A DNA stretch of 52,558 nt from Armatimonadota bacterium. Lineage in GTDB: Bacteria; Armatimonadota; Armatimonadia; Armatimonadales; Capsulimonadaceae. Both the position numbers and the translations under genes were made by a program. Numbering within the stretch: the stretch's first letter is position 1; every line of letters starts with the position of its first letter. The notes under the pieces are model-generated. The model had not been told where the DNA came from. It worked only from the letters and a program-made list of their open reading frames with translations, and made no database searches. The stretch spans positions 1 to 52,558 of the forward strand of contig JANXNV010000233.1 of the NCBI GenBank assembly GCA_025353925.1, read 5' to 3'. Below, piece after piece: positions 5,108 through 6,830 of the stretch.

Positions 5108-5584
5108 CTACCCTAAACGGGCAGTGACTTCCTCCCAGCGCTCCGTATCGAAACGCACCTGCCAGGCGAATGCTTTGCCTTTGCGGTCGTAATAGACTGC
5201 CATCGCCGCTTTCGCCAGATGCCGGGTGTCGGTAGCCAGCAATTCGCTCGCCAGCACAGCGCAGCGCAGGTAGGCGACCGCGTGCCGACCGCTCATACGC
5301 CAGGCCTGGCCTTCGGCCCCCGACTTCTCCATCGCCGACCGGAGTGCTGCGGGAAGAACGGCAGCCGCCGTCCGTGCCGGGACGCGCGGCGTTTTGACCA
5401 CCGCCGGTTTGACGGCCACTGTCTTGACCGCCACAGGTTTGACCGCCGCCAGCTTGACCTTGGCAGCCACCGGAAGCGCGAGGACCGGCTTTTCGGTGCG
5501 TTTCGGGGCTGGCTTCAAGGCAGGCCTCAGCGGCGGGGGATCAAGCGCAAAAAGTGTGGGCTGGTCGATAGGCGTCTTTCTCAT
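5108..5584 (-). CDS. Lys/Ala/Pro-rich small protein with a beta-clamp-like motif, behind an SOS-like promoter
   Basis: 158 aa from the ATG at 5584, chosen because GAGG lies seven to ten bases upstream and because the longer ORF start (5632) falls inside the promoter. Residues 8-12 are QPTLF, matching the sliding-clamp-binding consensus (QxxLF). Residues about 35-75 are a disordered basic tract with near-repeats of KPVAVK/KTVAVK/KPAVVK. Residues about 95-158 look globular (MSGRHAVAYLRCAVL, YYDRKGKAFAWQVRFD). No known family was recognised. A LexA-like box sits between -35 and -10. A role in damage response or at the replication fork is inferred from promoter plus motif only. Confidence 0.7.
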   Translation of the reverse strand: MRKTPIDQPTLFALDPPPLRPALKPAPKRTEKPVLALPVAAKVKLAAVKPVAVKTVAVKPAVVKTPRVPARTAAAVLPAALRSAMEKSGAEGQAWRMSGRHAVAYLRCAVLASELLATDTRHLAKAAMAVYYDRKGKAFAWQVRFDTERWEEVTARLG

Positions 5585-5618
5585 GGGGTTCCTCGAGTTC
5601 GTCCGTGTGTTTTCCCTT

Positions 5619-5648
5619 AGTATAGCAAACAAATGTTCGCTGTGTCAA
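5619..5648 (-). promoter_or_regulatory. Sigma-70 promoter with internal LexA-like (SOS) box
   Basis: On the minus strand: TTGACA (5643-5648), 18-base spacer, TATACT (5619-5624). The spacer holds CGAACATTTGTTTG (5626-5639), one base from the Gram-positive type SOS consensus CGAACnnnnGTTCG. A repressor bound there would block RNA polymerase. Transcription would begin about 28 bases before the ATG at 5584. Confidence 0.72.
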
Positions 5649-5706
5649 CGGGGTATAACGACAATCACTGATGTTATGCAGTGACGGCGTAGAGCGGAGA
5701 AGACGT

Positions 5707-5720
5707 GGAACTAAAGTTCT
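5707..5720. promoter_or_regulatory. Second LexA-like palindrome in the divergent spacer
   Basis: GGAACTAAAGTTCT contains the exact GAACnnnnGTTC core of Gram-positive type LexA boxes, about 70 bases from the box in the 5619-5648 promoter. The rest of the 355-base spacer 5585-5939 holds no gene that I can support. Confidence 0.45.
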
Positions 5721-5939
5721 ACGCTGTGGGGCGCAGACGCCTAGTTTCGACCTGCGTCGAAAAAGAGGTTAAGATAATAGTGAGTGGTCTTATCCTGTCC
5801 CGGCGCAGGCCGCGACTTGGCGTTTCGCCCCACAGCGGTGGATTTCAATCCCACGTTCCTCCGGCTCAGGCTTGTCACTGACGCTGACTCAGGAAATCAT
5901 GCTTGCATATCAAACAAAACAATTGGTGAGGAGAAACTT

Positions 5940-6830
5940 ATGGAGCGGCGGCAATTGGGGAAGACTGGGCTGGAAGTCAGCGCACTGGGATTTGGCGGGG
6001 CGGAGATCGGCTATCAGGCCGCTTCTCTCAGCACCGTTGAGCGGCTGCTGGGGAGTGCGCTGGACGCCGGGCTGAACGTTCTAGATACGGCGGAATGCTA
6101 CGCGGGGGGTGAGGAGCTGATCGGGCAGGCCGTGGCGCATCGGCGAGACCACTTCCATCTGTTTACGAAGTGCGGGCACTCTTCGGGCTTTGACGCGCCG
6201 GACTGGGACCTGACGATGCTGGAACAGAGCATCGACCGCAGCCTGAATCGGCTGCAAACCGACCGGGTGGACCTGCTTCAGCTGCATTCCTGCGACGAGT
6301 CCCTGCTGCGGCAGGGGGATGTGATCGCACTGCTGCAAAAGGCCCAAGAGGCGGGCAAGACCCGCTTTATCGGCTACAGCGGTGACGGTGCGGCGGCCCG
6401 GTACGCCGTGGAGTGCGGGGCCTTCGACACTCTCCAAACCTCGCTTTCCGTAGCCGATCAGGAGCCGATCACGCTGACCCTCCCCCTCGCTTTGGAGCGC
6501 GGCCTGGGCGTGATCGCCAAACGCCCGATCGCCAATGCCGTCTGGACCAAATCGACCCTGCCGGAAGACGACTATTCTTACCCCTACTGGGAGCGTCTGC
6601 AGAGACTGGACTACGACTTTTTGAAAACGCCCGAAGCCGCTTCCGTCGCCCTGCGCTTCACTCTGGCGCAGCCTGCCGTGGCGACCGCGATTGTCGGCAC
6701 GCAGAACCCGGATCGCTGGGCACGGAATGCCGCACTTCTCGAAGCGGGGCCGCTTCCGCCGGATGTCATTGCCGCGATCCGCACCCGCTGGCAGGCGATC
6801 GCCGGGCCGGACTGGACCGGGCGCAGATGA
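5940..6830 (+). CDS. Aldo/keto reductase
   Basis: 296 aa from the ATG at 5940, preceded by GAGGAG; the longer ORF start at 5784 adds a tail with no family similarity. It begins MERRQLGKTGLEVSALGFGG, the standard opening of the family. The catalytic tetrad is visible: Asp and Tyr in DTAECYAGGEE, Lys in LFTKCGH, His in LLQLHSCDE. It is an NADPH-dependent carbonyl reductase of unknown substrate acting in the cytoplasm. The C-terminal part (VATAIVGTQNPDRWARNAALLEAG) resembles the shorter AKR11/12-like bacterial members. Single gene, convergent with the SIS gene. Confidence 0.9.
   Translation: MERRQLGKTGLEVSALGFGGAEIGYQAASLSTVERLLGSALDAGLNVLDTAECYAGGEELIGQAVAHRRDHFHLFTKCGHSSGFDAPDWDLTMLEQSIDRSLNRLQTDRVDLLQLHSCDESLLRQGDVIALLQKAQEAGKTRFIGYSGDGAAARYAVECGAFDTLQTSLSVADQEPITLTLPLALERGLGVIAKRPIANAVWTKSTLPEDDYSYPYWERLQRLDYDFLKTPEAASVALRFTLAQPAVATAIVGTQNPDRWARNAALLEAGPLPPDVIAAIRTRWQAIAGPDWTGRR

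Follow-up and report, generated by a model that had tools for sequence, protein, structure and literature searches.

The imuA/imuB-dnaE2 mutasome is an SOS-controlled system of clamp-dependent damage tolerance, and YneA, SulA and SidA are small lineage-specific SOS proteins that inhibit cell division. Sliding-clamp-binding peptides follow the QxxLF and QxxLxF patterns. The SOS box of Gram-positive bacteria (Cheo/Bacillus type), CGAACRNRYGTTYC, is bound by canonical LexA (PMC2248561), and duplication of lexA with divergence of the motif has been documented elsewhere (PMC8565304). In the open-licence PMC literature, no SOS paper on Armatimonadota was found; the box and its logic are already known, and their application in Armatimonadota appears to be undescribed in that literature. 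The promoter described here lies in a stretch of 52,558 nucleotides from an Armatimonadota bacterium (contig JANXNV010000233.1, referred to as the window) and encloses a box of this type. The family of the small gene behind it (gene B) is, judged from sequence, a new, unnamed SOS target.

Architecture of the promoter at 5619-5648

The original prediction of a minus-strand TTGACA-18-TATACT promoter enclosing an SOS-type box matches the sequence in both coordinates and letters. Read on the minus strand from 5648 to 5619, the segment is TTGACA CAG CGAACATTTGTTTG C TATACT, with a spacer of 18 bp, and 34 nt separate the -10 hexamer from the ATG of the 158-aa ORF (Table 1). The box agrees with CGAACNNNNGTTCG at 13 of 14 positions (T for C at position 13) and with YRAACN4GTTYR at all 14, and it is the sole perfect match to CGAACN4GTTYG in the whole window. 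An alternative TTG start inside the box, giving 174 aa, was rejected: it would turn the operator into coding sequence and has no visible ribosome-binding site.

Table 1. Features of the gene-B locus, with positions in the window
Feature	Position	Strand	Basis or remark
-35 hexamer TTGACA	5643..5648	-	Sequence; same hexamer at the homologue promoters of G001, G002, G004, G033, G227, G228 and G229
LexA-type SOS box CGAACATTTGTTTG, occupying the promoter spacer	5626..5639	-	Sequence, phylogenetic footprint, genome-wide context
-10 hexamer TATACT	5619..5624	-	Sequence; TATACT/TACAAT/TATAAT equally spaced in homologues
Probable ribosome-binding site GAGGAA (TTCCTC on the plus strand)	5589..5594	-	Sequence
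Gene B, 158-aa ORF, ATG at 5582-5584	5108..5584	-	Uncharacterised Armatimonadota-restricted family
QPTLF, residues 8-12, resembling a beta-sliding-clamp-binding pentapeptide	5549..5563	-	Sequence comparison
Basic Ala/Lys/Pro/Val-rich linker of species-variable length, predicted disordered	5315..5527	-	AlphaFold2, pLDDT ~55-64
Conserved C-terminal domain, residues 92-158, W..AxAY...AxAxY....G..FAWQ..F....W	5111..5311	-	Alignments and AlphaFold2

A MITE-like element of ~155 bp with 31-nt imperfect terminal inverted repeats (5700-5858) is placed between the SOS promoter and a divergent aldo/keto reductase gene (5940-6830, plus strand). About 30 near-full-length copies, in addition to fragments, occur in this genome, mostly 75-89% identical, and a comparison with Rfam gave no match. 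The intergenic region of the sister species (G001) is shorter and lacks the element.

Conservation of the operator and the LexA proteins that may bind it

A profile of the C-terminal domain was searched against 291 Armatimonadota genomes, and gene-B homologues were found in 19 of them. All confirmed matches in a scan of 84,980 species, at the sensitivity of that method, are from Armatimonadota, and the family is restricted to this phylum at the sensitivity used. At 17 of the 19 loci, a palindrome matching at 13-14 of 14 positions (11 perfect and six at 13/14) is present upstream of the gene or operon, and at approximately 16 of the 19 it fills the -35/-10 spacer (17 or 18 bp), usually one base before the -10 hexamer. 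Box and promoter placement are conserved at homologues in several Armatimonadota families, as in G001 (TTGACAAGGCAAACATCCGTTTGCTATACT), G002 (TTGACATAGCGAACATATGTTTGCTACAAT), G004 (TTGACATGGCAAACAAATGTTTGCTATAAT), G010 (TTGCAAAACAAACTATAGTTTGATAGACT) and G228 (TTGACAATCGAACATGCGTTCGATATAAT). Between the window genome (G000) and G001, promoter and operator are kept while the flanking DNA drifts. The box of G008 is accompanied by a poor -35 hexamer, and no operator was seen at the homologues of G024 and G038, the latter at a contig edge.

In G004, G011, G014, G017 and G018, gene B is preceded under the same operator by a second unknown gene (gene A, ~130-190 aa). G232 has gene A alone, with the box TTGAGATGCGAACAGATGTTTGCTATAAT, and a search of the window genome for gene A gave no match. 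The strict spacer pattern is found at 10 gene-B loci and also at gene A of G232. Across these genomes, 23 recA loci include 4 with a perfect box (in G000, G001 and G004, and at one of G014's two loci; 0.07 expected by shuffling), a count in which more diverged recA boxes may be missed. The regulon therefore varies, and in this group gene B has kept the operator more constantly than recA has.

Comparison of the lexA and recA upstream regions, by which the original prediction could be judged, reveals that recA and one of the three lexA genes of this genome carry the same box class as 5626-5639. At the full-length recA, CGAACAGACGTTTG lies directly 3' of the -10 hexamer in TTGACA-17-TATAGT. The recA-linked lexA (contig C142) has CAAACAATAGTTTG over its -35 hexamer, and its divergent partner, a TM/LysM, yneA-like gene (L021:10496-11005), has CAAACATTAGTTTG just 3' of the divergent -10. 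A further site, CAAACAATTGTTTG, precedes imuB, which is followed by a DUF6504-like ORF and then dnaE2. The promoter sites together represent a predicted canonical SOS regulon of Gram-positive type. A short second RecA (224 aa; L022:10840-11514, G000:C235) with the perfect box CGAACACTTGTTCG was also observed between cinA and recX, which is the usual recA neighbourhood; the full-length recA lies elsewhere, adjoining lexA.

A genome scan for the motif, proposed in order to see whether it marks known SOS genes, does mark recA, lexA and imuB-dnaE2, but the bare count is unremarkable: the 4.03-Mb genome has 20 CRAACN4GTTYG sites and 16 of the reversed control, and several of the 20 fall within genes, where they are presumably noise. 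The bare count, which is not above chance, is weak evidence, and the placement is strong evidence. A chance palindrome in an ordinary constitutive promoter would agree with such a count, but this explanation is rendered extremely improbable by the combined pattern and by homologues in several families, at which the palindrome keeps both its place and its sequence. A palindrome fitted between TTG... and TA...T is found 0 times in 20 Mb of second-order Markov sequence, and the 18-bp-spacer architecture has 10 matches in the 291 genomes against 1 for the control, 4 of which are gene-B or gene A-B promoters (G000, G001, G002 and G004, of the window's family f1).

The 17-bp-spacer form has 55 matches in the 291 genomes. 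Among the 30 of these that were read, the genes 3' of the site include gene A, gene B, an IMS-family (imuB/dinB) polymerase and a UvrA-like protein (labelled from the sequence as read; in Pfam its only match is to ABC, below threshold and over residues 1-170), in addition to several DUF6504 ORFs, a DEAD helicase family and radical-SAM proteins. The DEAD-box helicase family (L142, L143, L147, L148, L151 and L153), with the box in the promoter spacer in the Armatimonadota families f21 and f43, is perhaps another lineage-specific SOS gene.

In the alignment, all three LexA-type genes of the window genome retain the Ser/Lys residues and, at the cleavage site, an AG or GG-like region; LexA structures were matched at 2e-23, and a tree separates the paralogues into three clades (classes I, II and III). 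Class I, the recA-linked LexA with the recognition region SSCTV-K/Q-KHL, is the class with clean CRAACN4GTTYG boxes at its own promoter, both here and in f3. The class II lexA here has a different, tandem degenerate box, CGAACATCCGTTGC-CGAACGCCTGTTTT, and no box was found close to the class III lexA. In three genera (L018, L095 and L099), a tandem degenerate CGAACATnYGTTGC-CRAACrsCTGT, unlike the simple palindrome, is conserved upstream of the class II lexA. A half-degenerate box, CAAACAnATGCTCG (GGTCG in G004), is conserved 200-280 bp upstream of the class III lexA in four genomes of the family (L016, L097, L109 and L110), apparently near the start of the preceding gene.

The presence of three paralogues, two of which lack the simple palindrome nearby, would be compatible with an operator for another dyad-binding repressor, or for a LexA paralogue that acts outside the SOS response on a separate signal, as would the loss of catalytic residues in some class III and f3 paralogues of relatives. 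This alternative is nevertheless improbable: within this genome the box recurs at recA, the recA-linked lexA and imuB-dnaE2, and elsewhere in the phylum it also occurs at genes of IMS polymerase and UvrA-like type. Additionally, four genomes with gene B (G007, G010, G014 and G017) were found to have only one LexA-type repressor, of class I, and their gene-B box is perfect (G010 and G017) or matches at 13/14 (G007 and G014), which indicates that this LexA is the probable natural binder in these four.

In G227-G229, class I was not found, only classes II and III (class II and a weak match in G227). The gene-B box of G228 and G229 is CGAAC...GTTCG, and the operator therefore seems to have remained with the LexA that governs each lineage, whichever paralogue that is. 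Because the three paralogues of the window genome all look cleavable, any of them is a candidate binder of 5626-5639. Several LexA paralogues of f2 and f3 (L104, L113, L114, L115, L116 and L117) no longer have the catalytic Ser/Lys, in many cases along with the cleavage site, and are possibly uncleavable repressors.

Since the box is conserved in place at gene B and shared with recA, the recA-linked lexA and imuB-dnaE2, the LexA-type control originally proposed for the gene at 5108-5584 is well supported by the comparative evidence, and 5619-5648 is very probably an SOS operator through which the gene is repressed by LexA and SOS-induced. By analogy with LexA and the SOS response elsewhere, gene B would be repressed until DNA damage induces it. 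A LexA dimer would sit between the -35 and -10 hexamers and block RNA polymerase; RecA filaments on single-stranded DNA would trigger LexA self-cleavage, upon which the 158-aa protein would be made. Gene B would thus be a stable, dedicated SOS regulon member of a small Armatimonadota-specific family, and in some relatives the second gene of an SOS-controlled pair after gene A.

The gene-B protein and its gene-A neighbor

The C-terminal portion of the gene-B protein is predicted by AlphaFold2 to form an alpha/beta domain of ~65 residues with the order beta-beta-alpha-alpha-beta-beta-alpha, in blocks at pLDDT 87-94, and the N-terminal part is predicted to be disordered. Comparison with Pfam, NCBIfam, PHROGs, PADLOC and PDB sequences yielded no family match. 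A match to DEAD_assoc (E 0.035) fails the cut-off and was taken as chance. The best Foldseek match of the model (E 0.06, TM ~0.2) is meaningless, and the fold search gave no match that supports any molecular function.

The first 19 residues are kept between the window species and its sister (MRKT..QP.LFALDPPPL), and the linker lengths of the two differ by dozens of residues. The end of the protein that bears the basic Ala/Lys/Pro tail differs between groups: the N-terminus in the window's family, the C-terminus in f3, G024 and G038. The clamp-like peptide is present in three of the four f1 homologues, as QPTLF in the window, QPALF in the sister species and QTALIF in G002, and was not found in G004 or in the gene-B homologues of other families. 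QPxLF would accordingly be confined to this genus, G002 having a variant of it, and its absence from G004 and the other families makes it at best a late addition.

With an hhalign probability of only 0.2%, a relationship between gene A and gene B was rejected. The AlphaFold2 model of gene A has a pLDDT of 80, and its top Foldseek match is RusA (1q8r), a weak one (E 1.6e-3, TM 0.41/0.50) among unrelated folds. The acids D26, E77, E110 and D132 are invariant in four sequences and form no obvious D-x-D cluster along the sequence. A RusA-type resolvase is a lead only, suggested by this model.

As a guess held with low confidence, the gene-B protein may be an accessory of repair or translesion synthesis that works at stalled forks or damaged DNA, where its basic tail would contact DNA and QPxLF the beta clamp. 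The same SOS regulation would also suit a checkpoint factor that inhibits cell division instead of assisting repair or the clamp, and small lineage-specific SOS proteins are often of that kind, as are YneA, SulA and SidA. However, no transmembrane or hydrophobic segment is visible in the gene-B sequence, which also has no LysM and no Pfam match, and the LysM protein divergent from lexA already resembles the yneA counterpart. The basic tail and clamp-like motif seem a better fit to contact with DNA or the replisome, and a checkpoint role is rather unlikely. For the repair-accessory reading, a wider and equally tentative proposal is that gene B, with gene A where present, could be a phylum-specific SOS arm whose LexA link is more conserved than that of recA, and in which a new small alpha/beta domain is anchored on the sliding clamp and on damaged DNA.

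Comparison with described SOS systems

For Armatimonadota, the locus supplies a specific LexA box and an initial outline of an SOS regulon. It also singles out a protein family that stays under predicted LexA control from one family to the next, including cases where recA lacks a perfect box. A role of gene B in surviving DNA damage can thereby be tested directly, and genomes with several LexA genes are suited to studying how duplicated repressors split a regulon. As in the lexA duplication described previously (PMC8565304), several lexA paralogues with different operators occur in one genome.

The operator shares with the Gram-positive SOS box the 5-4-5 dyad, the CRAAC/GTTYG arms and the occurrence at lexA, recA and imuB-dnaE2, beside canonical LexA proteins. 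It differs in that the Armatimonadota arms are often CAAAC...GTTTG and in that one gene family has the box fixed between its -35 and -10 hexamers. The arrangement on C142 resembles the divergent yneA-lexA pair of Bacillus, with lexA, a divergent membrane/LysM gene and boxes between them, but that pair involves another regulon gene, to which the window gene is unrelated. With the imuA/imuB-dnaE2 mutasome and its partners (DUF6504 and ImuA'), this genome shares an imuB-DUF6504-like-dnaE2 arrangement under the same box, whereas the window protein matches none of the ImuA, ImuB and DUF6504 families and is encoded outside the imuB operon.
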